Positions 3,113 through 30,416 of a stretch of 33,238 nt of DNA are shown in pieces. The DNA is from Planctomycetota bacterium (GTDB lineage Bacteria > Planctomycetota > Phycisphaerae > Phycisphaerales > Phycisphaeraceae). The DNA lies in the NCBI GenBank assembly GCA_021784455.1, contig JAJXSS010000002.1:1-33238 (forward strand). The letters are read 5' to 3'. Numbering within the stretch: position 1 is the first letter of the stretch; each line of letters begins with the position of its first letter. Below the pieces are notes generated by a model. The model searched no databases, was not told where the DNA came from, and worked only from the letters and a program-made list of their open reading frames with translations. The translations under genes were made by a program, and so were the position numbers.

Positions 3113-3260
3113 TTGCGCGGCGTGGCGACCCATCGGCCGCTAATTCGAGTATGAGTCACCAGATGGTATGCTTGCCGTAGGGATTGCCACCGAAAGCCGG
3201 ATGGGCGACAATTGCCGGGCGGTGCGGTTATTGGGGCGTCCCGGCACAAATCTGGTCAGG

Positions 3261-4181
3261 ATGCGACGGGCAATGAGAATCAGAGAAAGACTGTTTCTGG
3301 TCGCGGGCCTGGTCGTTGTGTGCCTCGTGCCGAACCGCCTGTGGGCGGATGCGGGGAAGGTGGCGACTTCCGCCCCGACGGTGACGCGCTATGAGGCCGT
3401 GGCCGAAGCGCGCGAAGACCGGCGTTTGGGCTTTACCGTACCGGGCAAGGTGGCTCACATCCCGGTCAAGGAAGGCCAGCATGTGAAGGCCGGACAGGTT
3501 CTGATGGAGCTGGATGACCGGCAGGGGGTTCTGGCGGTGCAACTGGCGCAACTGGTGGCCCAAAGCCATCTGGAGGTGGAAGCTCAGGAGCAGAGCCTGG
3601 CCATGGCGCAATTGGAGGAGAAACGGCTGGCGCAACTGCTCAAGCAGTCGGCCGCCGCCCCCATCGAAGTGGAGCGGGCCAAGATTCGGGCCAAGGTGGA
3701 GGCGATCCGACTGGCCAAGACGAAGGAAGACGAGCAGGAGGCCCAGATCAAGGCCGCCCAGGCCGAGGCCCTGCACGAGCAGTATGTGTGCAAGGCGCCG
3801 TGTGACGGGGTCGTGGAGTCCATCGTGGTCAGCGAAGGGGAACTGGTCGAGGCCCTTAAGCCGGTGCTGCGGCTGGTGGCCACCGATCCCCTGTTGATTC
3901 AGGTCTGGGTGCCCACGCCGGACACCATGCGGCTCAAGCCGGGGGACCCGGCCTGGATCATTCATCCGCTGCTGGGCGAAAACAAGCCCATGCTGGGCCA
4001 CATCACCGCCATTGCCCAGGTGGCCGACAGCCTGGGCAAGCGTCAGGTGCGCATCGAGGTTCCCAATCCGCAAGGCCTGCCGGCCGGGGGCAAGGTCAGC
4101 GTGCAGTTTGTGGCACCGGTTGCGGCCCTCGGCGCGGCGCCGAGGGCCGGGCGGTCCCGGGCCGGGGAGGCTCAGCCATGA
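3261..4181 (+). CDS. HlyD-like periplasmic adaptor (membrane fusion) protein
   Basis: Signal-like RERLFLVAGLVVVCLVPNRLWA; lipoyl-like half GFTVPGKVAHIPVKEGQHVKAGQVLMELDD, alpha-hairpin, then CKAPCDGVVESIVVSEGELV. Start chosen at 3261 (3273 also possible) instead of the ORF-track start 3168. Confidence 0.82.
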   Translation: MRRAMRIRERLFLVAGLVVVCLVPNRLWADAGKVATSAPTVTRYEAVAEAREDRRLGFTVPGKVAHIPVKEGQHVKAGQVLMELDDRQGVLAVQLAQLVAQSHLEVEAQEQSLAMAQLEEKRLAQLLKQSAAAPIEVERAKIRAKVEAIRLAKTKEDEQEAQIKAAQAEALHEQYVCKAPCDGVVESIVVSEGELVEALKPVLRLVATDPLLIQVWVPTPDTMRLKPGDPAWIIHPLLGENKPMLGHITAIAQVADSLGKRQVRIEVPNPQGLPAGGKVSVQFVAPVAALGAAPRAGRSRAGEAQP

Positions 4182-6082
4182 CTCGTTTGCGAGCTGCGCC
4201 CAGCCGCCAGCCCCGGGCCTGGGAGGAACTGATCACCCAAGTGACCGCGGCGCCCGACCGGCCCACGGCCCTGCGTGGCATTCTGGAACTGCAGTGCCGG
4301 ATTGTCGCGGCGCAGTATGGCCTGTTCTGGGAGCCCGGGCCGGAAGGGGCGCCGGTGGCGACGATTTCCTGGCCGATGGCCGACGGCAGCACGGCCCTGG
4401 CCGAGCCCGTGCTGAAGATGCTGCAGCAGGCGGCCCGGACCGCCCTGGAGCGCGGGACCAGCCAGGTGCTGCGGGTGGAGCCGGCCGAAGGCAGCGGCCC
4501 GATGTCCAGCGACACCTATGTGTTCGTTACGGCGCTGCGGGCCGAGGGCCAGTGCGCGGCGGTGGTGACGGTGGTGGCCGAGGTGCGTGACACGCAGGTG
4601 ATCACGATAACCACGCCGCAGCGGGAGATTGCGGCCAGCCTGTATGAGAACGTGCTGGCGCGGCAGCGGCAGCAGTCGGCCGAGCTGGAGGCCCAGCGTG
4701 TGCGCCAGGCCATGGCGCTCTTGGCGGTGGTGCAGGACGGGCGGGGCTTTTCGGGATCGTGTCTGAACCTGGTCAATGAACTGGCGCGGTCGCTTAAGGC
4801 CGAGCGGGTGAGCCTGGGGTGGATCCGCGGCCGGAATCTGAAACTCAAGGCGGTCAGTGACAGCGAAGAGGTCAAGCACAAGGGCGAGCAGGCAGCGCTC
4901 CTGGAAATGGCGATGGCTGAGTGCCTGGACCAGCAGCAGCCCATCATGTGCCCGCTGCCCGAAAGCGCGGAACCGGCCCTGGCCCATGCGGTGGTCTACG
5001 GGCACCGGCGGCTGATCGAGGGGCAGAGCCAGAAACAGGTGGTTTCGGTGCCTCTGCGGCACGGGGAAGAATGGGTGGGCGTGCTGACGATCGAGCGGTG
5101 CGGCGACGCTCTGGATGCCGGCGATGTGCAGCGCCTGCAACTGATCGCGGATGTGATTGCTCCGCAACTGGCCGACCGCCGGGCCAGCGACCGCTGGCTG
5201 GGGGCCCAGGCGTGGGAATCATGCAAATGGACGGCGGGCAAGCTGGTGGGCCCCAAGCACGTGGGGTGGAAGCTGGCCGGGGCGGCCGTCCTGGTGGCGG
5301 TGCTGTACGTGCTGCTGGCCACCTGGCCATTCCGGGTGACGGCCTCCTTCCGACTCGAGGCGATGCAGCGGCAGGTGGTGCCGGCGCCCTTCCGCAACAA
5401 GCTGGATGAATTGCTGGTTCATCCGGATGACGTGGTACACAAGGGCCAGGTGCTGGCCAGGCTGGACACGACGGATCTGGCCATCCAACTGGCCGGGGCC
5501 CAGAAGCAACTGGAAGTGGCCCGCATCCAGCGTGACCAGGCTCTGGGGGATCCGAGCAAGCATGCGGAGGCGGAACTGGCCCAGGCCCAGGCCGATGAGT
5601 ACCAGGCCCAGGTGGACCTGCTGCAATACCAGATCCGCCAGGCGACCATCCGCAGCCCGGTGGACGGCGTGGTGCTCAACAGCTACTGGGAGCACCGTGT
5701 GGGCAGTGTGGTGGATCAGGATCAGCCCATGTTTGAGGTGGCGCCGCAGGGGGACGTGACGGCGGTGCTACGCGTGAGCGAGGGCGATGTACGCTACCTT
5801 CTGGACCGCGAGGGCCGGATGCGCCGCGGGCTGGTGGGCGAGCTGGCTACGCGCAGCGAGCCGGAGCAGACCTTTCCCATTCACGTGGAGCGGATCGTGC
5901 CCCTGGCCCAGCCGGTGGACGGCAAGAACGTGTTTGAGGTCTGGTGCGGTCTGGATCGTTCGGCCCCTTGGTTCCGCCCGGGCATGGAAGGGATGGCCAA
6001 GGTGGATGTGGGGCGCGAGCCGCTGTCGTGGATCCTGACGCACAAGATCGTAGATGCCGTACGGCTGTGGATGTGGTGGTGA
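4178..6082 (+). CDS. GAF-domain / TM / HlyD-like membrane fusion protein
   Basis: ATGA overlap with upstream gene; GAF-like N-terminal half, single hydrophobic segment VLVAVLYVLLATWPF, then RNKLDELLVHPDDVVHKGQVLARLDTTDL ... TIRSPVDGVVLNSYWEHRVGSVVDQDQPMFEV. Confidence 0.85.
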   Translation: MTRLRAAPSRQPRAWEELITQVTAAPDRPTALRGILELQCRIVAAQYGLFWEPGPEGAPVATISWPMADGSTALAEPVLKMLQQAARTALERGTSQVLRVEPAEGSGPMSSDTYVFVTALRAEGQCAAVVTVVAEVRDTQVITITTPQREIAASLYENVLARQRQQSAELEAQRVRQAMALLAVVQDGRGFSGSCLNLVNELARSLKAERVSLGWIRGRNLKLKAVSDSEEVKHKGEQAALLEMAMAECLDQQQPIMCPLPESAEPALAHAVVYGHRRLIEGQSQKQVVSVPLRHGEEWVGVLTIERCGDALDAGDVQRLQLIADVIAPQLADRRASDRWLGAQAWESCKWTAGKLVGPKHVGWKLAGAAVLVAVLYVLLATWPFRVTASFRLEAMQRQVVPAPFRNKLDELLVHPDDVVHKGQVLARLDTTDLAIQLAGAQKQLEVARIQRDQALGDPSKHAEAELAQAQADEYQAQVDLLQYQIRQATIRSPVDGVVLNSYWEHRVGSVVDQDQPMFEVAPQGDVTAVLRVSEGDVRYLLDREGRMRRGLVGELATRSEPEQTFPIHVERIVPLAQPVDGKNVFEVWCGLDRSAPWFRPGMEGMAKVDVGREPLSWILTHKIVDAVRLWMWW

Positions 6083-6084
6083 GG

Positions 6085-6162
6085 ACGAGCCGCGACCATG
6101 AGGGAGGGCTCTGCACCGTAACGACAATCCGACAAGGCCGCTCCCTTACGGTCGCGGCTCGT
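6085..6162. repeat. REP/BIME-like palindromic repeat (ACGAGCCGCGACC...AGGGAG arms)
   Basis: 22-nt arms: 6085-6106 ACGAGCCGCGACCATGAGGGAG and 6141-6162, whose reverse complement is ACGAGCCGCGACCGTAAGGGAG (20/22 matches). Confidence 0.7.
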
Positions 6163-6179
6163 TGGGCGGGTGACAATCG

Positions 6180-8342
6180 ATGGATCGGCCGACATTCAGC
6201 GAATCCTGGAGCCGCGTCAGCCGCCTGACCCCCACCCTGCGCCCGCAGGTGCAGGTGCGGCGGCGGAGCTTGTGCAGGCAGCGCTGGTACGTGCTGCACG
6301 AACCAGTCAGCCAGCAGTTTTTCCGGCTCAATCCGGTGGCCTACCACTTGGTGGGGCTGCTGGACGGCCACCGCATCGTGGACGATGCCTGGCGTCTGAC
6401 CCTGGAACGCTACGGAGATGATGCCCCCACCCAGCCGGAGGTGGTGGGTTTGCTGGGGCAGCTCAACCAGGCCAATCTGCTGCGGGTAGACCTGCCGGTG
6501 GACGCCGAGCCCCTGTTGCGCCGCTCGGGGGAACAGCGGGCGCGGCGCTGGGCGGGGCAGGCGATGAGCATTCTGTTTCTACAGGTGCCGCTCCTGGATC
6601 CCGACCCATTTCTGAGCCGCCTGCTGCCGCTGATGCGGCCGCTGCTGTCGGTGGTGGGGCTGATCCTGTGGGCGGTCTGGGTCACGGTGTGCGCGGTCCT
6701 GTTCCTGCCCCACCTGGGCACGTTCATCCACGACAGCGGCAGCATTCTGGCCCCGGCCAACTGGGGCTGGGTGATGGTGTTCTTCATCCTCATCAAGCTG
6801 GTCCATGAGACGGGGCACGGGCTGGTGTGCAAGCGTCTGGGGGGCAACGTGCACGAGGCGGGCATCATGCTGCTGGTGCTGTTTCCGTGCCCGTACGTGG
6901 ATACGACCAGTGCCTGGGCCTTCGAAAGCCGCTTCCAGCGGGTGCTGGTGGGGGCGGCGGGCATGATGTTCGAGCTGACGATTGCCGGGGGGGCGGCCCT
7001 GGTATGGCTGCACGCCGATCCGGGTACCACGGTGCGGCAGGTGGCCCACAACATCGTGCTGGTGGCCTCGGTGGCGACGGTGATCTTCAACGCCAACCCG
7101 CTGATGCGCTTCGACGGATACTTCATCCTCAGCGACCTGCTGGAAGTCCCCAACCTTTACGACCGCTCGATGCAGCACCTCAAATGGCTGGGGCAGCGTT
7201 ACGCCTTTGGCATGACCGCGGCCCCGCCGGTGGCCACGGACCGCGGCGAACGGCGCATCCTGCTGGTCTATGGGGTTCTGGCCGCCATCTACCGCGTGGT
7301 GGTCATGGCGGGCATCGCCATGCTGATCGCCGTGCGGTTCTTCACCATCGGTCTGGCCCTGGCCATCTGGACGGTGGGGGCGTGGCTGTTGTTCCCGCTG
7401 GGGAAGTTCGTGCACTGGCTGGCCACCAGCCCGGCCCTGCACCGCCAGCGCAACCGGGCGGTGCTGGTCAGCGTGGCCACGGCGCTTGCGCTGCTGCTGG
7501 CCATCGGCCTGGTGCCGGCCCCGCAGTACCAGCGGACCGTGGGCGTGGTCGAGGCCCGGCAGCGGGCGGATGTGGCCATCCAGAGCGACGGTTTCGTGCA
7601 GGAGGTCAAGGCGGAGGTGGGCGACGAGGTTCGCCAGGGGCAGGTGCTGCTGGTATGCGATAACCCCATCCTGCGGGCCCAGCGGCGGCAACTGGTCGCC
7701 CAGATCAAGGGTCTGCAGTTGGAGGAGACCTACGCCCTGCGCAATCCGGCCGATCTGGCCGTGGCCCAGGCCAAACACCGGGCCTTGCAGCAGGCCCTGG
7801 ATGATGCCAACGAGCGTATTGCGGACCTGGTGGTGCGCAGCCCGCTGGCGGGCCGGCTGGCCGGGCCGCCCCTGGCCCCGCTGCTGGGCCGCTACGTCAA
7901 GCGCGGCCATGTGGTGGCCCAGGTGGAGGATCTGCGGTCGCTGCGCGTCACGGCCCTGGTGGATCAGGCCCAGAACGCGCTGGGTTTTTTCAACAGCATC
8001 CGGGCCGTGGAATTGCGGGCCCCGGGCGATGTGGGCGTGGACCTGCCCAGCCGGGTGCTGCAGACGTTTGATTCCGGGCGAACGCAACTGCCCCACCCGG
8101 CGCTGGGGGCTCTGGACGGCGGGCCCGTGGCCACGGACCCGCACGATCCCAAGGGCATGACGGCGCTGCGCCCCCAGTTCGAGATCTGGCTGGCCGTGCC
8201 GCCGCCCCGGACCGCCGCGGATCCCCCGTTTCTGCCGGGCGAGCGGGTGTACGTGCGTTTCACGCTGGCTCAGCGGCGTCCGCTGCTGTGGCAGTGGATT
8301 CATCGGTTCCGCCAGATCTTCCGCGAGCCGTGGGAGACGTGA
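6180..8342 (+). CDS. PqqD-like / M50 site-2-protease-like / HlyD-lipoyl fusion protein
   Basis: PqqD-like N-terminus; HETGH zinc motif (6804-6818) and NPLMRFDG second motif among TM segments; C-terminal GFVQEVKAEVGDEVRQGQVLLVCDNP ... VVRSPLAGRLAGPPLAPLLGRYVKRGHVVAQVED. Confidence 0.85.
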   Translation: MDRPTFSESWSRVSRLTPTLRPQVQVRRRSLCRQRWYVLHEPVSQQFFRLNPVAYHLVGLLDGHRIVDDAWRLTLERYGDDAPTQPEVVGLLGQLNQANLLRVDLPVDAEPLLRRSGEQRARRWAGQAMSILFLQVPLLDPDPFLSRLLPLMRPLLSVVGLILWAVWVTVCAVLFLPHLGTFIHDSGSILAPANWGWVMVFFILIKLVHETGHGLVCKRLGGNVHEAGIMLLVLFPCPYVDTTSAWAFESRFQRVLVGAAGMMFELTIAGGAALVWLHADPGTTVRQVAHNIVLVASVATVIFNANPLMRFDGYFILSDLLEVPNLYDRSMQHLKWLGQRYAFGMTAAPPVATDRGERRILLVYGVLAAIYRVVVMAGIAMLIAVRFFTIGLALAIWTVGAWLLFPLGKFVHWLATSPALHRQRNRAVLVSVATALALLLAIGLVPAPQYQRTVGVVEARQRADVAIQSDGFVQEVKAEVGDEVRQGQVLLVCDNPILRAQRRQLVAQIKGLQLEETYALRNPADLAVAQAKHRALQQALDDANERIADLVVRSPLAGRLAGPPLAPLLGRYVKRGHVVAQVEDLRSLRVTALVDQAQNALGFFNSIRAVELRAPGDVGVDLPSRVLQTFDSGRTQLPHPALGALDGGPVATDPHDPKGMTALRPQFEIWLAVPPPRTAADPPFLPGERVYVRFTLAQRRPLLWQWIHRFRQIFREPWET

Positions 8343-8347
8343 CACCC

Positions 8348-10417
8348 ATGGCCAGCGCCCCGATCCAGTCCGATCTGGCTCTTTACTCGATGCTGCGCAC
8401 CCGGCGGCGGCGGGTGGAGATGCCGCGTGGCCTGGATGCCATGGCCAACCGCTGGCTGGCGCGGCTCAAGCACATCCGTCTCAACGTCCGGCAACTGAAG
8501 GCCCAGGCCCAGGCCATTGTGGCCCTGGAATCCGCGTGGGCCGAGCGGACGGAAGCGCAGTTGGAGGAGCGTCTGGAGGAGATCCGCACCGTTTTCGCCC
8601 GGCGGCGCCAGACCCCCGAGCACGTGCGGCAGGGTTTTGCCGCGGTGCGCGAGGTTGCCTGGCGCACCACGGGGGAACGGCCGTTCCCGGTGCAGATCAT
8701 GGGGGCCCTGGGGCTGTATTACGGGCAGATCGTGGAGATGGCCACGGGCGAGGGCAAGACCCTGACCGGGGCGCTGGCGGCGACGGTGCTGGCCTGGCGG
8801 CGTCGGCCGGTACACGTGGTGACGGTGAACGACTACCTGGCTCAGCGCGATGCCGACAGCCGCAACGTCATTTACCGCCGCTGCGGGCTGGCCTGCGGGG
8901 CCATCGTGGCCGACGCCCCGCCGCCGGCCCGGGCGGCCGTGTACCGCCTGCCCGTGGTGTACGCCACGGCCAAGGAACTAATGGCCGACTGGCTGCGCGA
9001 CCAGTTGCGCCTGGGGCGGATCGCCGATCCGGTCTCGACGCGCTGGGGCGACCGGCAGATCTGGCGCGGCGGGCGGGACCAGGCCTCCCTCCTCGAGCAG
9101 GTGCTGGTGCCGGGCCTGGGGGCAGCCATCGTGGACGAGATCGATGCCATCCTGATTGACGAGGCGGTGACACCCCTGATCATCGCCCAGGAGCGCGGCG
9201 AAGACCCGCAGCGCGACATCTATCGCCGGGCCCAGGAACTGGCCCGGAAACTGCAGCCGTTCAAGCACTTCACGCTGCGCGGCGTGGAGCGCCAGGCGGA
9301 CCTGACCGACCCCGGCCGGGACATGCTGGCGGCCCTGATCAGCCGCGAGGACCACGCGGTCTGGCACGCGCCGCGGCGCGCCGAGGAACTGGTGTCGCAG
9401 GCCCTGGCGGCCCAGCACTGCTATCACCTGGGTGAGCACTACCAGATCCTGGACGGCAAGGTGGTCATCGTGGACGAATACACCGGCCGGTTCATGGCCG
9501 ACCGGCAGTGGCAGAACGGCCTGCATCAGGCGGTGGAGGCCAAGGAGGACCTGTCGGTGACGGCCGACCGCGACACAGTGGCCAGCATCAGCTTCCAGCG
9601 CTTCTTCCGCCAGTATCCGCACCTGACGGGCATGACCGGCACGGCGGCCGATGCCCGGGGGGAAATGGAGCGCACCTATGGCCTGCCGGTGCGGGTGATT
9701 CCGACCAACCGGCCGGTGCGGCGCATCTACCGCCCGGTGCGCCTGTTCGCCCGGCAGCCGGAGAAGTGGCAGGAGGTGGCCCGGCACATTGCCCAGGTAC
9801 ATGCGACCGGCCAGCCGATTCTCGTGGGCACCCGTTCGGTGGCGGCCTCGGAATTGATCAGCGGCCTGCTGAGTGAGCGCGGCCTGGCGTACCAGGTGCT
9901 CAATGCCGTCCACCACAAGGCCGAGGCCCAGATCATCAGCACGGCCGGACAGCGCGGCATGATCACGGTGGCCACCAACATGGCCGGCCGCGGCACAGAC
10001 ATCAAGCTGGCCCCGGGCATCGCCGAGCTGGGGGGGCTGCACGTGATCCTGACCGAGCGGCACACGGCCCACCGCATTGATCGCCAGCTCATCGGCCGCT
10101 GCGGCCGCCAGGGTGATCCGGGGCTGGTGCAGGTGTTCGCCAGTCTGGAAGATGACCTGGTGGTCAAGTACACGCCCCGGCTGGCGGCGATCTTGAGGCG
10201 CTGGCTGGCCTGGCGCCAGGGCTCGGCCCGCCCGCCGGCCGGCCCCGGCGAGGCGTCCGCCCCAGACCCCGCCGGGTCGCCCAAGCCCCCCCGATCCTCG
10301 ACCGCAATCCTGCGGCTGTTCGATCTGGCCCAGTGGCTGGCCACGCGGCGGGCGTTCCAAAGCCGCCTGCTGGTGATCCGGCACGATTACGAGCTGGATA
10401 AGTCGCTGCCCTCCTAG
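8348..10417 (+). CDS. SecA-like ATPase lacking the C-terminal helical scaffold/wing region
   Basis: SecA motifs: EMATGEGKTLTGAL, VHVVTVNDYLAQRDA, VDEIDAILIDEAVTPLII, VVIVDEYTGRFMADRQWQNGLHQAVEAKE, HLTGMTGTA, VIPTNRPVRR, TVATNMAGRGTDI, RIDRQLIGRCGRQGDPG. Ends about 100 residues after the last motif. Start 8348 preferred over 8288. Confidence 0.88.
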   Translation: MASAPIQSDLALYSMLRTRRRRVEMPRGLDAMANRWLARLKHIRLNVRQLKAQAQAIVALESAWAERTEAQLEERLEEIRTVFARRRQTPEHVRQGFAAVREVAWRTTGERPFPVQIMGALGLYYGQIVEMATGEGKTLTGALAATVLAWRRRPVHVVTVNDYLAQRDADSRNVIYRRCGLACGAIVADAPPPARAAVYRLPVVYATAKELMADWLRDQLRLGRIADPVSTRWGDRQIWRGGRDQASLLEQVLVPGLGAAIVDEIDAILIDEAVTPLIIAQERGEDPQRDIYRRAQELARKLQPFKHFTLRGVERQADLTDPGRDMLAALISREDHAVWHAPRRAEELVSQALAAQHCYHLGEHYQILDGKVVIVDEYTGRFMADRQWQNGLHQAVEAKEDLSVTADRDTVASISFQRFFRQYPHLTGMTGTAADARGEMERTYGLPVRVIPTNRPVRRIYRPVRLFARQPEKWQEVARHIAQVHATGQPILVGTRSVAASELISGLLSERGLAYQVLNAVHHKAEAQIISTAGQRGMITVATNMAGRGTDIKLAPGIAELGGLHVILTERHTAHRIDRQLIGRCGRQGDPGLVQVFASLEDDLVVKYTPRLAAILRRWLAWRQGSARPPAGPGEASAPDPAGSPKPPRSSTAILRLFDLAQWLATRRAFQSRLLVIRHDYELDKSLPS

Positions 10418-14817: not shown

Positions 14818-16509
14818 TCATGCCGGGACATCCGGCGGGGGCGGCTCCTCCAGGTTGCTGGCCTCGGGGCCGAGGGTTTCGGTGGAGGCCGGGGCTTGGC
14901 CCGGATCGGTAGGCAGGTGCATGGTGAAGACGGTGCCTGCCTGCGGGGCGCTTTCCACGGTGATGCTGCCGCCGTGCTCTTCGACAATCTTTTTGGTGAC
15001 GGCCAGACCCAGGCCCGTGCCGCGCTGGCCCTTGGTGGAGTGGAAGGGCAGGAACAGGTACTGGCGGTGGGAGGGGTCGATGCCTTCGCCGTTGTCCGAC
15101 ACCGACAGATGCACCTGATGCGCCGGATCGTCCCAGAAGCAGCGCAGGGTGACGACGCCCGACTCGGGCTGCACCGCTTCCAAGGCGTTGGCCAGCAGGT
15201 TCAGCACGGCCTGATGCACGCCGCCGGCATCGGCCGGCACGGGCGGGAGGTTGGGATCCAGCTCGGTGATCAGGGCCACCTTTTTGGCGTCGAACTGGTG
15301 CTGTACCAGCTCGATCACTTCTTCCAGCAGGGCGTGCAGGTTGGTCATCTCCAGCTCCGGGCGGCGCTGCTTGGAGAAGGCCAGCATGTTCATGGTGAGC
15401 TGGGAGATGCGGTCCAGGTTGCGGGCCACGATATCCCAGCCGTTGTGCACAATGCTCATGTTCTGCTTGCGCAGGCCCAGCTCCACCACCTCGGCCCCGC
15501 CCTTGAGGCCCTGGATGATGTTCTTGACCGAGTGCGACAGCGAAGCCACCGTCTGGCCCACGGCCGCCAGGCGCTCGCGCTGGACGCGCTCGGCGTAGAG
15601 CTTTTCATTGTTCAAGGCCAGCCCGATCTGCACGCCCACGGCCGTCAGCAGCCGCAACTGGTCTTCGGTGTAGGTGTAGTTGGCGATCTGGCTGTCGAGG
15701 TACAGGACGCCGAAGGTGTTGTCCTTGAAGCGGATCGGGGCGCACAGGGCCGAGCGGATGCCATAGCGCTGCACGCTTTCCCCCGAGGCGAAGCGCTTGT
15801 CCGCCATGGCGTTGGAGGACAGCACGCCCTCTCCGCGTTTGAGCACGTGATTGACGATGGTGCGGCTGACGGTGATAGGGGCCGGGCTGGGTTGCTTAAG
15901 CGGCATGCGGTGGCGCACCGCCACCGGCTGCCAGCGCGGCTGGGCGCCTTCCATCAGCAGGATGAAGCCGCGGTCGGCCTGGAAATAATCGAACACCACG
16001 TCCAGCGTGCGTTCCAGGAGCTGCGAGCGATTGGTGACCGTGCCGATGAGCTGGGTCATCTCGTAGATGACCTTGAGCTGGAACACGGCCGCCTCGGTGG
16101 GCTCGGGCACGGCCATGATCATCGAGTCTTCGTTGCTGGCGGCGGTGGCCTCGACGTGGGAGTCGAGTTCGCCGGGCCGGGCCAGACGCACGCCCGGGTG
16201 GCTGCCCTCGCGGGGCAGCTCGCGGCCGAACACGAACACGGTGTTGCCGGTGCGGATCTGGTCGCCGGCCTGCAGAAGCCGCCGTTCCATGACCCGCTGC
16301 CCGTTAACGTACGAGCCGTTGGCGCTCTGCAGGTCGCTGATGAACCAGCGGCCCTCATCGGGGGTCAGCTCGGCGTGGCGGCGCGAGATGGTCTGATCGG
16401 TCAGCGGCAGCGATTCGCTGGAGCGCCCGATCATCTGCGGCTCATTGTCCGGCAGCACGAAGCGCTTGCCCTTATCCGGACCTTTCAGAACTGTGAGAAT
16501 CAAGGACAT
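14818..16509 (-). CDS. FHA-GAF sensor histidine kinase
   Basis: FHA: MIGRSSESLPLTDQTISRRHAEL...DLQSANGSYVNGQRV; GAF middle; H-box VASLSHSVKNIIQGL; HATPase DNGEGI, GTGLGLAVTKKIVEEHGG. Confidence 0.92.
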   Translation of the reverse strand: MSLILTVLKGPDKGKRFVLPDNEPQMIGRSSESLPLTDQTISRRHAELTPDEGRWFISDLQSANGSYVNGQRVMERRLLQAGDQIRTGNTVFVFGRELPREGSHPGVRLARPGELDSHVEATAASNEDSMIMAVPEPTEAAVFQLKVIYEMTQLIGTVTNRSQLLERTLDVVFDYFQADRGFILLMEGAQPRWQPVAVRHRMPLKQPSPAPITVSRTIVNHVLKRGEGVLSSNAMADKRFASGESVQRYGIRSALCAPIRFKDNTFGVLYLDSQIANYTYTEDQLRLLTAVGVQIGLALNNEKLYAERVQRERLAAVGQTVASLSHSVKNIIQGLKGGAEVVELGLRKQNMSIVHNGWDIVARNLDRISQLTMNMLAFSKQRRPELEMTNLHALLEEVIELVQHQFDAKKVALITELDPNLPPVPADAGGVHQAVLNLLANALEAVQPESGVVTLRCFWDDPAHQVHLSVSDNGEGIDPSHRQYLFLPFHSTKGQRGTGLGLAVTKKIVEEHGGSITVESAPQAGTVFTMHLPTDPGQAPASTETLGPEASNLEEPPPPDVPA

Positions 16510-24772: not shown

Positions 24773-25282
24773 ATGAGCAAGCCACGTCGAATCCTGCACC
24801 GGGGTGCCTTCACCTTGGTGGAGGTGCTGATGGTAGTCGCCATCATGGGCATCGCCGCGGCGATGGTGGTGCCGGCCATGCTTCAGGGCAGCACCATGAG
24901 CCTGCAGGCGGCGGCCCGCATGATCGTTTCCGACATGTTGTATGCCCAGAATGATGCCATCGCCCGCCAAGCCAACCGCCGGGTGGTCTTCGACACAGCC
25001 CACAACAGCTACGAACTGACGGATGCCTCCGGCACGCTGCTGGACCCATCCGAGGCCGCCGGGCGGGGCAGCTTTTTGGTGGATTTCAGTACGGACAGCC
25101 GTTTTTCCGGTGTCACGCTCGTCTCGGCCGCCTTTGGCGGTCAGGCCACACTGGAATTCGACCCGCTGGGCACCCCTCTGGTGGGCGGGGCCGTGCAGAT
25201 CAGCGGGGGCGGGCATAAGTACGAGATCGACGTAACCGATATCACCGGCCGGGTCACCATCTGTGACCTGTCGGGGCAGTAA
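24773..25282 (+). CDS. GspH/FimT-like pseudopilin
   Basis: HRGAFTLVEVLMVVAIMGIAAAMVVPAMLQGS prepilin-type N-terminus; beta-rich C-terminus. Confidence 0.82.
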   Translation: MSKPRRILHRGAFTLVEVLMVVAIMGIAAAMVVPAMLQGSTMSLQAAARMIVSDMLYAQNDAIARQANRRVVFDTAHNSYELTDASGTLLDPSEAAGRGSFLVDFSTDSRFSGVTLVSAAFGGQATLEFDPLGTPLVGGAVQISGGGHKYEIDVTDITGRVTICDLSGQ

Positions 25283-25310
25283 ACGCGGACCGAGAAGGGA
25301 GATCCATTCG

Positions 25311-26489
25311 GTGTTTGGAGGCATACTGGCATCCTCACGCACCCCCCTGGGGCTGGACTTCGGGACGCGCAGCGTCCGTCTTCTGCAATTAGGGTGCGGC
25401 AAGCAGGAGTGGGCGGTGGCGGCCGCCGCGGAGGCGGCGCTTCCGGCCGATCTGCCGGCCCAGGGGCCCGATCGCCACACCGCGCTGGTGGAGCTGCTCA
25501 AGGGCCTGTTGGCGCAGGGCGGGTTCCGCGGTCGCAAGGTCGTCAGTTGCCTGCCCTCGGCCTGCGTGCAGTACAAGAGCGTGCGCCTGCCGCGTATGCC
25601 CGACGAAGAAATGCGCACGGCGGTGGAGTGGGAAGCCAAGGAACGCATGCGTCCGGCCCATGCCTCCGCCAATGCCGGGGAGCTGATCGTGCAGTTCTAT
25701 GATGCGGGGGAAGTCCGCCAGGGGGAGGAGGCGCGTCAGGAAATCATCGTAATGGCGGCTGAGGCCAGCGCCGTGACGGAGCATGTCGCGGCGTTGCGTG
25801 CCGCCGGCCTGGTGCCCCTGGCCATCGATGCCGCGCCCAGCGCCCTGGCCCGGGCTCTGGCTCGAACCGGTGCGGCTCTTCCGGGGGCGTCGACCGACAG
25901 CAGCGCCCCGGAAGAGGAGGCTCCCGCCCGCTTCATCCTGGATGTCGGTTTCGGGGTTTCCAAAGTCCTTATCGTGCGCCAGGGGCGCATTGTGTTCTAC
26001 AAGACCATCGAGATCGGTGGGGGCCGCTTCGACCAGACCGTGGCGACCAAGCTGAACCTGCCTCTGGCCGATGCGGCGCATATCCGCAGCAGCCTGCGCC
26101 GGGAAGAACCTGCGGCTGCAAGCCCGCCGCTCTTTGGTTCCGACCGCCGGGAAAGCGTGGAACGAGCCGTCTTCGAGGCCCTGCGCCCCCTGGTGGAAGA
26201 ACTGGTCCGCGAAGTGGGCCTGTGCCTGCGCTATTACGGGGTGACGTTTCGTGGGCGGCGTCCGGAACAGGTCCTGCTGGCGGGGGGCGAAGCCGGTGAA
26301 CCCAGTCTGATCAAAGCCCTGACCCAGGAGGCCAGCCTGCAGGTGGCGCCGGCCCAGCCGCTGGTGGCGATTGATCCGGCTCTGCTGCTGAACCAAGGCG
26401 TGCCGGCCCAGAGCTTGGCGGCCTGGTCGGTGGCCACCGGGCTCTGTCTGCGTCCGCCAGCCCGTCAGGCGCAACGGAGGGCCGCATGA
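25311..26489 (+). CDS. pilM: Type IV pilus assembly protein PilM-like (actin-like ATPase)
   Basis: PLGLDFGTRSVRLLQL, EEEMRTAVEWEAKE-like segment (DEEMRTAVEWEAKERM), FILDVGFGVSKVLIVRQGRIVFYKTIEIGG, VLLAGGEAG. Confidence 0.85.
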   Translation: MFGGILASSRTPLGLDFGTRSVRLLQLGCGKQEWAVAAAAEAALPADLPAQGPDRHTALVELLKGLLAQGGFRGRKVVSCLPSACVQYKSVRLPRMPDEEMRTAVEWEAKERMRPAHASANAGELIVQFYDAGEVRQGEEARQEIIVMAAEASAVTEHVAALRAAGLVPLAIDAAPSALARALARTGAALPGASTDSSAPEEEAPARFILDVGFGVSKVLIVRQGRIVFYKTIEIGGGRFDQTVATKLNLPLADAAHIRSSLRREEPAAASPPLFGSDRRESVERAVFEALRPLVEELVREVGLCLRYYGVTFRGRRPEQVLLAGGEAGEPSLIKALTQEASLQVAPAQPLVAIDPALLLNQGVPAQSLAAWSVATGLCLRPPARQAQRRAA

Positions 26490-27133
26490 GCGAGATTGAT
26501 TTTCTACCTCCGGAATTCCTGAAGCGCCAGGGTCACCGCCGACGCGTGGTCCGTCAGGGCGTGCTGCTGGGGGTGGCGTGGCTGCTGCTGGTGGGCTGGT
26601 TTGCGGCCCGCCAGGGCAACCTGATGCGCTTGAATCAGTACGCCCGGAGCCTGGAGGCCCAGGCCTCGGCTCTGCACCTGCAGGCTCAGCAGTTGGCCGA
26701 TCTACAGCGACAGAAAGCCCTTCTGCAGAACCGTCTGGCGGTGGATCGCGAACTGCGGCCGGCGGCGTCTTACACGCAGATCGTCAGCGCGCTGTCGCGC
26801 GTTATGCCACCCGCCCTGACCCTGCTGGAACTGAGGCTGACCGACAGCCATGGCCCGGCTCCGACCGCGGCCCACGGGGGCAGCGGCCCCCCGCGCCGGG
26901 GCCCGCCTCTGGTGCATCTGGCCCTGGATGGGGTGGCTCCCAACGATGGGGATGTTGCCGACTTGGTAGGTCGGGCCACGGATTTCCCGCTGTTTACCTC
27001 GGTCAAGCTCCTGTACTGCCGATCCCAGAAGATGGGCGATCTGACGGTGCGTAATTTCCGGATGGAGATGGATGTGCCGTTGGACTGCCGGTACCTGCCG
27101 CGCACGGCGGAGGGGGTGGCCCGTGCGCATTGA
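26486..27133 (+). CDS. PilN-like inner-membrane assembly protein
   Basis: IDFLPPEFLKRQGHRRR N-terminus, one TM, coiled-coil; ATGA overlap with pilM. Confidence 0.75.
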   Translation: MSEIDFLPPEFLKRQGHRRRVVRQGVLLGVAWLLLVGWFAARQGNLMRLNQYARSLEAQASALHLQAQQLADLQRQKALLQNRLAVDRELRPAASYTQIVSALSRVMPPALTLLELRLTDSHGPAPTAAHGGSGPPRRGPPLVHLALDGVAPNDGDVADLVGRATDFPLFTSVKLLYCRSQKMGDLTVRNFRMEMDVPLDCRYLPRTAEGVARAH

Positions 27134-27683
27134 ACGGGATCAGGCCCGTGTGGCGGTGTTGATCTGCGCAGGGGCCGTCGTGTTCGCCGTGGGGGCCTGG
27201 TGGCCCCAGTACCGCCGCGAGCAGGCCCTGGGCCGGCGCATTGCCCTCGCCCAGCAGGAGATTCAGAACGATGATGGGCCTAGCGCCGATCTGGCCGGGC
27301 TGGCCCGCCAGGTGGCCGATCTGCAGTCCACGCTGGATGCCTCGGCCCAGCACCTGTCCCAGCCCGATGAACTGGCCGAGGCCCTCAAGTACCTCAGCGC
27401 CCGCATGGAGGCCTTGCACCTGACCGATCAGCAGATTGTGACGGGGAGCCTGAGGTCCGAACCGCACTACGCGATTCTGCCGCTAACTCTGCAATTTCGC
27501 GCCAGCTTTCCCAGCGCGTTTGCGCTGGTCAAAGAGATCGAGTCCATGCCGCGTCTGGCCCGGGTGGTCCGTCTGAGCCTGGCCAACGATGCCTCGCGCA
27601 CGGATCGGCCGGTCGCGGTCTCGCTGGAAATGGAACTGTTTTTCACCCCGACCCCGACCGCCCGCCAGGAGGGCAAGCCATGA
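27123..27683 (+). CDS. PilO-like assembly protein
   Basis: GTG 27123 overlaps the PilN-like gene end; single N-terminal TM, coiled-coil, LTLQFRASFPSAFALVKEIESMPRLARV. Confidence 0.7.
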   Translation: MRIERDQARVAVLICAGAVVFAVGAWWPQYRREQALGRRIALAQQEIQNDDGPSADLAGLARQVADLQSTLDASAQHLSQPDELAEALKYLSARMEALHLTDQQIVTGSLRSEPHYAILPLTLQFRASFPSAFALVKEIESMPRLARVVRLSLANDASRTDRPVAVSLEMELFFTPTPTARQEGKP

Positions 27684-28216
27684 GTCCGACCATCCGCCGG
27701 GCCTGGGCCTCATTCAAGGCTGAACAGCGCAAGATGGCCATCGCGGCCGTGTTGGTGGTGGTAGCGGTCGTGTTGTGGGTGCACCTGTACTGGCACGCGA
27801 CGCCGGCGCCGGCCCAGGCTCAGACCCTCAGCCCGCCGCCGAGCGCCAGCGCCCAGGGCTCGGCCCGCTTATCGGACCGCCCGGTCGTCCGCGTCAATCT
27901 GACGCAGGATTTGGGGCGCGACCTCTTCGCCTTTGCCGATTCGCACTACGCCACGCAGAAACCGGGGGCACAATTGGCGGGGGCGGCAAAGTCACCCGCG
28001 TCGACGGTCGATAACTCCCAACAAGCCCAGATCGTGACGGAAGCCGCCCGCAGCCTGAAGCTTCAGACCACGATTGTGGGGGCCCACCCCCGGGCCGTGA
28101 TCAACGGCCAACTGGTGGGCCCGGGGGACAAGATCGCGGGCTTTACAGTTCGTCGGATTCTCGACCGCAAGGTCATTGTGGAAATGGATGGAGTCCAGGT
28201 TCGGTTGGAAATGTGA
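27680..28216 (+). CDS. PilP/GspC-like periplasmic linker protein
   Basis: N-terminal TM, Pro-rich linker, C-terminal small beta domain LQTTIVGAHPRAVINGQLVGPGDKIAGFTVRRILDRKVIVEMDGVQVRL. Confidence 0.65.
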   Translation: MSPTIRRAWASFKAEQRKMAIAAVLVVVAVVLWVHLYWHATPAPAQAQTLSPPPSASAQGSARLSDRPVVRVNLTQDLGRDLFAFADSHYATQKPGAQLAGAAKSPASTVDNSQQAQIVTEAARSLKLQTTIVGAHPRAVINGQLVGPGDKIAGFTVRRILDRKVIVEMDGVQVRLEM

Positions 28217-28262
28217 ACTTCAAGGAAAACCGGGAGGCACGCGCTCAGCGCAGGAGTCCGGT

Positions 28263-30416
28263 ATGAAAAGGTATGTGATCGGCATCGTTTTTTTTTGCAC
28301 CCTGGGGTGGGTTTATAGTGACCGGGCAATCGGGGCCGACGCCGCAATCCCGGCAAGCCCGGCGGTCCCGGTAACCCCGTCCAGTCCGCGGTCCATTTTT
28401 GGCGGCCAGGCGGGTACCCAGGGCCGGTCCCTGGATGCCACGGCGGTGAAGGTCGGCTCCTTCGGGCAGATTGATCTGCACGTCAAGGACCAGGATCTGA
28501 CGCGCATCCTGCAGCTTCTGTCCATCCAGGCTCAGCGCAACATCATTGTCAGCAAGAATGTCACGGGCACGGTGACCGCCGACCTGTACGGCGTTGACTT
28601 CTACCAGGCCCTGGATGCCCTGCTGCACGCCAACGGCTACGGCTACCTGGAGAAGGGCAATTTCATCTACGTCTATACCGCTGCGGAGCTGAAGCAGATT
28701 CAGGCCGCCGAACGGCACACCATCGCCAAGGTTGTGCGGCTGAACTACATCAGCGCCGCCGACGCCTCCACCTTCGTCACACCGCTCTTGTCCTCGGCCG
28801 GGGCCATCACCCTGTCGGGCGCCGTGGGTGCGGGCTTTTCGCCCAGCACCTCCGACGGCGGGGCCAACACTTATGCCCATGCCGACACCATGGTCATCCG
28901 CGATTATCCCGAGAACGTCGACCAGATCATGCAGGTGATCAAGCAGTTGGATGTGCGGCCCAAACAGGTGCTGATTGAGGCGACGGTTCTGGAATCCGAC
29001 CTGTCGGAGAACAATGCCTTCGGCGTCAACATGACGATCCTGGCCAGCTTCGGCCTCAGCGACTTCCCCAGCGCCGCTCTGGGCCCGGCCAACACCATCG
29101 CCAACATGGTCGGCGGCCAGATCACCGGCAATGCCCAGGCCGTGCAGTGGCAGAACATCGTGAACTCGACGGATCAGAGCTTCCGCGTGGGCATCCTCAA
29201 CAACAACATCGCGGCCTTCGTGGACGCCCTGGACAGCGTGACCGACACCACCACCCTGGCCAACCCCAAGCTGCTGGTCCTCAATCGCCAGAAGGCCAGC
29301 CTGCTGGTGGGCAACAAGGATGGTTACCTGTCCACCACCCAGACCCAGACTTCCACCACCCAGACCGTGGACTTCCTCGAGACCGGCACCAAGCTCACCG
29401 TGCGGCCGTTCATCAGCGATGACGGCATGATCCGCATGGAAGTTCAGCCCTCGATTTCCGACGGCAGTGTGACCCAGCTTGGTACCACCAACGTGGCCCT
29501 GCCCAATGAATCCACCGAGGAACTGACCACCAACGTGATGGTGCACTCAGGCCAGACCATCATTCTGGGCGGCCTGTTCAAGGAAAAGACCAACGTCCAG
29601 CGCAAGCAGGTGCCGGGCGTGGGCGATGTGCCCCTGCTGGGTGCGGCCTTCAAGGGCCAGAGCGACACGGTGGACCGCAACGAGTACATCTTCCTGATCA
29701 CCCCGACCATCGTGAAGGATGAGGCCCTGTATGCCGCCGGTGACCGCGCCCGTGATTCGGCGGATCTGGCCCGCATCGGCGCCCGCGAGGGCCTGCTGCC
29801 CTGGTCGCGCAGCAAGCTGGTTTCGGCCCACATGCGCGATGCCATGGATTACTACGAGAAGGGCGAGAAGAACAAGGCCCTGTGGGCGGCGGATATGGCC
29901 CTGACCCTGGACCCGACGCTGATCGAAGCCCGCCGCCTGAAGGACCAGATCACCGCCCGGCGCGAGACGCCGGCCTACACCGGCGTGCTCAAGGATGCCA
30001 TCGACGTCATGGTCAAGAAGCAGCTTGAGCTGGACAAGAAGAAGCCGGCCCCGGCTCCTTCCCCCGCGGCCCAGCCGCATGCCCAGGCCCCGGCTACCCA
30101 GCCGGCCCGGCTCGGGACCGCCAGTGCGCAACCGGCGCCGCTGAGCCAGGCTCCGGCCACCCAGCCGGCCGCGGTCAGCGTGGCCCCGCCGGCCACCCAG
30201 CCTGCTCCTGCGGCCCGCGTGAGCGTGATACCGACTCCGTCGGCTCCGCAGGCGGACTCGGCCTCTGCCGCCCCAGCCCCGGCGGCGGCTGCGGCGCCGC
30301 CGTCCATGCAGGAGGTCCTGGCCGCCGGACGGACCGCCGTGGGCCAGGATCCCCCGGCCACGCAGCCCGCCGCTTCAGAACAGACCGTCCCCATCACCCC
30401 GGTAGACGACCGTTGA
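28263..30416 (+). CDS. GspD/PilQ family secretin with TPR-like and Pro/Ala-rich C-terminal extension
   Basis: N-domain VKDQDLTRILQLLSIQAQRNIIVSKNVTGTVTADLYGVDFYQALDALL; secretin core TGTKLTVRPFISDDGMIRMEVQPSISDGS...VMVHSGQTIILGGLFKEKTNVQRKQVPGVGDVPLLGAAFK. Confidence 0.92.
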   Translation: MKRYVIGIVFFCTLGWVYSDRAIGADAAIPASPAVPVTPSSPRSIFGGQAGTQGRSLDATAVKVGSFGQIDLHVKDQDLTRILQLLSIQAQRNIIVSKNVTGTVTADLYGVDFYQALDALLHANGYGYLEKGNFIYVYTAAELKQIQAAERHTIAKVVRLNYISAADASTFVTPLLSSAGAITLSGAVGAGFSPSTSDGGANTYAHADTMVIRDYPENVDQIMQVIKQLDVRPKQVLIEATVLESDLSENNAFGVNMTILASFGLSDFPSAALGPANTIANMVGGQITGNAQAVQWQNIVNSTDQSFRVGILNNNIAAFVDALDSVTDTTTLANPKLLVLNRQKASLLVGNKDGYLSTTQTQTSTTQTVDFLETGTKLTVRPFISDDGMIRMEVQPSISDGSVTQLGTTNVALPNESTEELTTNVMVHSGQTIILGGLFKEKTNVQRKQVPGVGDVPLLGAAFKGQSDTVDRNEYIFLITPTIVKDEALYAAGDRARDSADLARIGAREGLLPWSRSKLVSAHMRDAMDYYEKGEKNKALWAADMALTLDPTLIEARRLKDQITARRETPAYTGVLKDAIDVMVKKQLELDKKKPAPAPSPAAQPHAQAPATQPARLGTASAQPAPLSQAPATQPAAVSVAPPATQPAPAARVSVIPTPSAPQADSASAAPAPAAAAAPPSMQEVLAAGRTAVGQDPPATQPAASEQTVPITPVDDR

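Follow-up and report, generated by a model that had tools for sequence, protein, structure and literature searches.

What does a short SecA-type ATPase do in one operon with three HlyD-type adaptors, one of which is fused to a membrane protease? The question is raised by a 33,238-nucleotide stretch of DNA from a Planctomycetota bacterium (assembly GCA_021784455.1, contig JAJXSS010000002.1, positions 1 to 33,238; hereafter the window), in which four tightly spaced open reading frames (ORFs) on the + strand, designated P1, P2, P3 and P4, were found just where the initial annotation had placed them, with P1 and P2 overlapping (4178/4181), a gap of 97 bp between P2 and P3, and one of 5 bp between P3 and P4. 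The four genes are as follows.

3261..4181, + strand: P1, periplasmic HlyD/RND-type adaptor (from domain matches and the recurrence of its homologue at P3 loci, given below)
4178..6082, + strand: P2, GAF domain, single transmembrane helix and HlyD adaptor arm (from domain matches and hydropathy)
6180..8342, + strand: P3, PqqD (RRE) domain, M50 site-2-type membrane protease and HlyD adaptor in a single chain (from domains and model)
8348..10417, + strand: P4, short SecA paralogue of 689 aa (from domains, tree, alignment and model)

Among the window genes scanned, none was of the ABC, RND, MFS, TolC or SecY type, in agreement with the initial annotation, which had seen no ABC, RND, TolC or SecY gene adjoining. 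Judged from sequence comparison, the cluster is probably a dedicated export machine for proteins tagged at the N-terminus with the LEPR-XLL motif, namely giant surface proteins, adhesins and extracellular enzymes. This likely substrate, the TolC-family genes in relatives, the loss of the two-helix finger from P4 and the spread of the module past planctomycetes all go beyond the initial annotation.

A search of 296 Planctomycetota genomes with P4 returned short SecAs (open frames of about 560-740 aa) versus canonical ones (about 870-1,260 aa), and around the short forms the same-strand order P2-P3-P4 was found in most loci of the taxonomic order to which the window belongs and in scattered other families. 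A P3 profile, scanned against a named genome collection, detected loci in Phycisphaerae, Verrucomicrobiota, Kiritimatiellae, Omnitrophota, Nitrospirota, Rokubacteria and Fibrobacter, as well as in alpha-, beta-, gamma- and delta-proteobacteria. Around the 79 named P3 loci, a P2 homologue was found upstream at 65 of 68, a P4 homologue downstream at 61 of 66 and a P1 homologue nearby at 43 of 51, where the denominators are the P3 loci whose contig leaves room for the respective neighbour, and where loci from metagenome-assembled genomes may hold binning errors, the main adjacency claims resting largely on isolates and complete plasmids. The median P2-P3 gap at these loci is at most a few tens of bases. 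Because the order recurs across phyla, the arrangement is far beyond chance, and P1-P4 constitute one conserved module across phyla; the co-occurrence on which the initial annotation had made its proposal of a single system depend is thus present. The alternative that a duplicated housekeeping SecA stands beside unrelated efflux genes is suggested by the public records, in which the parts are named separately and inconsistently, but it is already refuted by the conserved order over many phyla and by the position of P4 outside the canonical SecA clade (below), and practically no weight is given to it.

Long surface-type proteins (with cadherin, Ig, cohesin, fn3 or RTX repeats) are encoded beside the cluster in relatives, and their N-termini carry LExRxLL, which is the NCBIfam LEPR-XLL motif (NF012209); Pfam PF07595 (Planctomycete extracellular domain) appears to be the same motif. 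Among the 296 genomes, NF012209 was over cut-off in 35 of the 67 with a full P3 versus 2 of the 229 without it (Fisher p 1.9e-24), these genome-wide counts being based on profile searches that miss variants such as LEDRTLLSG, with profiles (24 positions for NF012209; 20 positions for PF07595, the matches of which were mostly below cut-off) too short for clean counting. LExRxLL variants beside the short SecA or elsewhere are held by several of the NF012209-negative P3 genomes (G050, G071, G241, G122, G207). Matches over cut-off were also present in 19 of the 22 operon genomes taken from several phyla, and Deinobacterium chartae was the only control genome with such a match. The motif was matched by 23 neighbouring ORFs, versus a mean of 0.29 and a maximum of 3 for permuted motifs.

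By coordinates, LEPR-XLL ORFs of about 8,000-14,400 aa lie upstream of P2 and end no more than about 1 kb from it in at least eight operon genomes (Neptuniibacter, Pseudooceanicola, Aquabacter, Bradyrhizobium, Kistimonas, Comamonadaceae, Jannaschia and Sulfuritalea). The annotation of a complete Pseudosulfitobacter plasmid reads LEPR-XLL (38.8 kb), HlyD, site-2 protease, SapC, 'prepilin peptidase' (in the P4 position) and adaptor, and that of a complete Pontibrevibacter plasmid, in the operon of which gene ends overlap, reads LEPR-XLL (31.8 kb), DUF3467, P2, P3, 'DEAD/DEAH box helicase' (in the P4 position) and P1; these two genes in the P4 position lie at 23074-25098 of L200 and 22139-24124 of L201. 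The window genome itself has four LEPR-XLL ORFs on contigs other than that of the operon, two of which encode a protein of 2,201 aa, in which CARDB and FKBP domains occur, and a PA14 protein, 1,046 aa long and truncated at the edge of its contig. LEPR-XLL genes are therefore found together with the module, in many cases directly beside it.

Some further features of these neighbourhoods were recorded. At 7 loci from alphaproteobacteria and others (e.g. L200 22260-23081), the operon contains or adjoins a gene of the SapC family, which is S-layer related, and a protein of about 100-120 aa recurs near the operon at 17 loci (e.g. the DUF3467 protein at L201 17863-18144), standing in Pontibrevibacter between the LEPR-XLL gene and P2. 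At four Planctomycetota loci (L054, L055, L060 and L068) a short SecA is found beside LEDRTLLSG giants, with P2/P3 elsewhere in the genome. In Omnitrophota (L115), a MESRILLSA giant of 3,150 aa or more comes after P2-P3, with no P4 nearby.

The sequence preceding the LEPR-XLL motif is mostly basic and 9-136 residues long, and the tag regions contain no stretch as hydrophobic as a signal peptide, the highest 15-residue Kyte-Doolittle mean being 1.04. The commonest form of the motif in proteobacteria is [FILMV]E[PAS]LEPR[VLIY]LLSADP. A basic, non-hydrophobic leader with LExLEPRxLLSA(D)P is very probably the export tag.

P4, with a start at 8348 and an open frame extending back to 8288, matched SecA_DEAD (E 1.5e-86), SecA_PP_bind and P-loop_SecA, with the following parts.

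8744..8764, + strand: Walker A of P4, TGEGKTL, T133-L139 (TGEGK invariant)
9134..9145, + strand: DEAD-type motif of P4, DEID, residues 263-266 (D263, E264 and D266 invariant)
9212..9538, + strand: preprotein cross-linking domain of P4, residues 289-397 (PF01043, E 8.6e-24)
10301..10405, + strand: last helix of P4, a stub of the SecA helical scaffold (from alignment and model, with no SecA_SW match)

In the alignment with canonical SecAs, the Walker A, the DEAD-type motif, the preprotein clamp and NBD2 are retained, and the protein ends at the 'EYDDV' position in the scaffold helix, without the rest of the scaffold, the wing domain, the two-helix finger and the zinc tail. In each of the 14 operon genomes tested, the canonical SecA contains the Pfam domain SecA_SW (PF07516, wing and scaffold), which is absent from the short form. 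In a tree of 87 SecAs, a quick tree that leaves the branching among the short forms uncertain, the 21 canonical proteins from proteobacteria and planctomycetes form one clade (Shimodaira-Hasegawa-like approximate likelihood ratio test, SH-aLRT, 100), with P4 outside it and grouped with short SecAs from other phyla. A canonical SecA is likewise encoded in the window genome (70.8% complete), in two pieces on different contigs, the N-terminal half ending C224 and the C-terminal half beginning C124, with an overlap of about 45 identical residues; the case considered in the initial annotation, of P4 as the only SecA of its genome and a member of the canonical cluster, does not apply. P4 was below all four SecA2 family cut-offs (474/1085, 453/930, 418/725 and 381/1100 bits). 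P4 is thus a SecA paralogue with intact motor motifs and no two-helix finger, and duplication of the housekeeping SecA was ruled out by the tree and the domain loss. Two observations on other SecAs are added: in Phycisphaerae relatives (L192, L194, L195, L196) the canonical SecA ORFs are about 1,360-1,440 aa long, with a large insertion that splits SecA_SW in two, and a further short-SecA copy (G241:C1:5587949-5589661) has two in-frame stops and is apparently a pseudogene.

In canonical SecA, the two-helix finger inserts into SecY and contacts the chain. As the finger is the part that reaches into SecY, its loss from P4 hints at another partner. The model of P4 (predicted local distance difference test, pLDDT, 87) best fits SecA from substrate-engaged SecA-SecY complexes (6itc, TMq 0.77; 5eul, TMq 0.76), and a truncated E. 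coli SecA (N68, 5k9t) is among its structural matches. One SecY per genome was counted in 13 of 14 operon genomes; a private SecY2 channel was accordingly not found, which leaves room for a SecYEG-dependent route. By such a route, P4 would be a specialised SecA that takes LEPR-XLL proteins to the ordinary SecYEG, P3 would trim the leader, and P1, P2 and P3 with TolC would serve only a second step from periplasm to surface. The single SecY and the fit to SecY-bound SecA speak for this; the missing finger, a leader without a hydrophobic segment for the SecY lateral gate, and the tight genetic link to inner-membrane HlyD fusions, which suggests a coupled machine, speak against it, so that it is considered possible but rather doubtful.

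The retained DEAD motor and preprotein clamp of a C-terminally truncated SecA, together with the N68 match, would also suit a role as cytosolic unfoldase or chaperone, by which giant chains would be kept competent for export, with transport by P3, P2 and P1 and an unlinked pump. This is unlikely, since no ABC, RND or MFS pump recurs near the module, an ABC exporter-like cluster being present in only 5 of 120 loci, and P4 is the sole recurrent energy source in the neighbourhood. Multidrug efflux was rejected as a function on the same count, no pump gene recurring in the neighbourhood of the 120 loci.

For P3, a PqqD match (E 3.7e-7), an M50 match that is weak in Pfam, and an HlyD barrel were obtained, and residues 19-401 matched NF041824 (daptide RRE-protease; E 1.6e-50) with 172 bits versus a curated cut-off of 300. 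Its parts are as follows.

6288..6482, + strand: PqqD/RRE-like domain of P3, residues 37-101, candidate leader-peptide reader (E 3.7e-7)
6804..6818, + strand: HExxH zinc motif of P3, H209-H213 (H209, E210 and H213 invariant)
7089..7121, + strand: second M50 motif of P3, NANPLMRFDGY, residues 304-314, with D312 as the presumed third zinc ligand
7524..7973, + strand: HlyD/membrane-fusion region of P3, residues 449-598, with alpha-hairpin (E 3.9e-14, and model)

HExxH and NxNPLxRxDGY are both intact in P3 and are invariant or nearly so in relatives: H209, E210 and H213, as well as N304, N306 and D312, are invariant across the sets of 20 and 41 aligned homologues. In the AlphaFold model of P3, which is confident (pLDDT 88), the C-terminal part matches MexA/MacA adaptor structures. 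The PqqD side of P3 probably faces the cytosol. RRE domains read leader peptides. In daptides, an RRE fused to a site-2 protease takes off the leader peptide (PMC10036551). Since P3 matches this family of proteases, it is the natural candidate for both the reading and the removal of the tag.

The same resemblance could be taken to mean that the module serves regulated proteolysis or the export of ribosomally synthesized and post-translationally modified peptides (RiPPs) or small molecules, with LEPR-XLL genes adjacent by coincidence or shared lifestyle. HlyD proteins do usually serve efflux, which would fit. This is nevertheless very improbable, given that P3 falls below the cut-off of the daptide model and that the association with LEPR-XLL genes is seen inside phyla as well as across them, both in genome-wide co-occurrence and in physical adjacency, where some genes even overlap.

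With regard to the two other adaptors, the ORF of P1 opens at 3168, and an in-frame ATG at 3261 directly precedes a signal-peptide-like stretch, so that 3261 is the likelier start; the RND_mfp/HlyD match of P1 (126 bits) is above the RND_mfp cut-off. P2 matched GAF (E 1.5e-9) and HlyD (E 4e-9), and its GAF side probably faces the cytosol.

4766..5161, + strand: GAF domain of P2, residues 197-328 (E 1.5e-9)
5261..5317, + strand: predicted transmembrane helix of P2, residues 362-380 (from hydropathy)
5336..6013, + strand: HlyD barrel/hairpin region of P2, residues about 387-612 (from domain matches)

Another GAF domain is encoded in the window, in an FHA-GAF-HATPase protein (14818-16509, - strand), and is, as far as seen, unrelated to the operon.

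For the favoured reading, that of a dedicated export machine for LEPR-XLL proteins, the following course is proposed. The PqqD/RRE domain of P3 may bind the leader and the M50 site remove it, a step for which the chances are judged to be even. P4, docked at the cytosolic face of P2 or P3, where the GAF side of P2 and the PqqD side of P3 could receive P4 and the tag, would likely spend ATP in feeding the unfolded tagged chain to the membrane. The inner membrane could be crossed via SecYEG or via a route that P3/P2 themselves provide. With somewhat less confidence than for the role of P4, it is proposed that the HlyD arms of P1, P2 and P3 bridge the periplasm to a TolC-family pore, TolC-family genes being found beside the cluster in 21 of 120 loci. 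The suggestion in the initial annotation that the SecA-like ATPase energises a dedicated export route thereby gained support as regards the route, and that P4 is its actual driver is still what we infer. In its fullest form, which is put forward only tentatively, the proposal is a new secretion system in which the fingerless SecA motor would bypass SecYEG, the RRE-read LEPR-XLL leader would be clipped by the built-in site-2 protease, and the giant chain would pass through P3/P2 and the HlyD arms into TolC in one step.

Several findings weigh against the export reading. Some Planctomycetota carry short SecAs apart from P2/P3, and a few operons are without P4 nearby (L110, L115). TolC is linked in a minority of loci only, the operon of the window genome has no LEPR-XLL gene and no TolC gene beside it, and about half of the P3-positive planctomycetes lack an NF012209 match over cut-off.

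Elsewhere in the window, a PilM-like protein and a secretin of the GspD/PilQ type (25263-30416, + strand) represent a type II secretion or type IV pilus cluster, and an ECF sigma factor (65-1267, - strand) is accompanied by an anti-sigma-like gene downstream. A defence system was also considered for the operon and rejected, with no PADLOC match for any of P1-P4.

Among known systems, type I secretion (ABC, HlyD and TolC) shares with the module the HlyD-type adaptors (P1, P2 and P3), the TolC-family gene at the above 21 loci of relatives (none being among the window genes scanned) and, as candidate cargo, very large surface proteins that sometimes bear RTX repeats. Unlike it, the module has a SecA-type motor instead of an ABC transporter, its adaptor arms come as fusions with GAF and protease modules, and the candidate cargo is marked by a motif at the N-terminus, in place of or in addition to the classical C-terminal signal. 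The accessory Sec system (SecA2/SecY2) likewise employs a second SecA paralogue for large surface adhesins, but here there is no second SecY, P4 is below the SecA2 cut-offs and without wing domain and two-helix finger, and envelope-spanning adaptors and a protease belong to the operon. The daptide RRE-site-2 protease (DapP/MpaP, NF041824) resembles P3 in its N-terminal PqqD/RRE and M50 parts with zinc motifs; P3 differs in its score (172 versus 300 bits) and its fusion to an HlyD adaptor, no daptide enzymes were found among the scanned window genes, and the candidate cargo has hundreds to 14,000 residues and does not consist of peptides. Tripartite RND/MFS efflux adaptors (MexA, MacA, EmrA) are similar to the HlyD part of P3 (MexA/MacA) and to P1 (over the RND_mfp cut-off), but no RND or MFS pump gene is in the module. 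LEPR-XLL (NF012209) and PF07595 mark the likely cargo with the same short N-terminal motif; they are, however, sequence labels only, to which no export machinery is attached in the literature found.

No description of a SecA-HlyD-PqqD-M50/LEPR-XLL system was found in the literature (open-licence PubMed Central papers). The proposed system, its function deduced from genomes, is neither type I secretion, nor accessory Sec, nor a daptide cluster. In public records the motor goes by the names 'preprotein translocase subunit SecA', 'DEAD/DEAH box helicase' and even 'prepilin peptidase', which may explain why it was overlooked. Planctomycetes, Verrucomicrobia, Omnitrophota and many marine and soil proteobacteria have enormous surface proteins without an assigned export route, and the module, if the proposal is true, would supply the machine and the tag together and unify the orphan motif families NF012209 and PF07595. 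In that case, SecA would act outside its textbook partnership, and a RiPP leader-recognition protease would have been reused for protein export. There are cultured isolates in which a single operon adjoins a single giant gene, and the system is therefore open to direct test.

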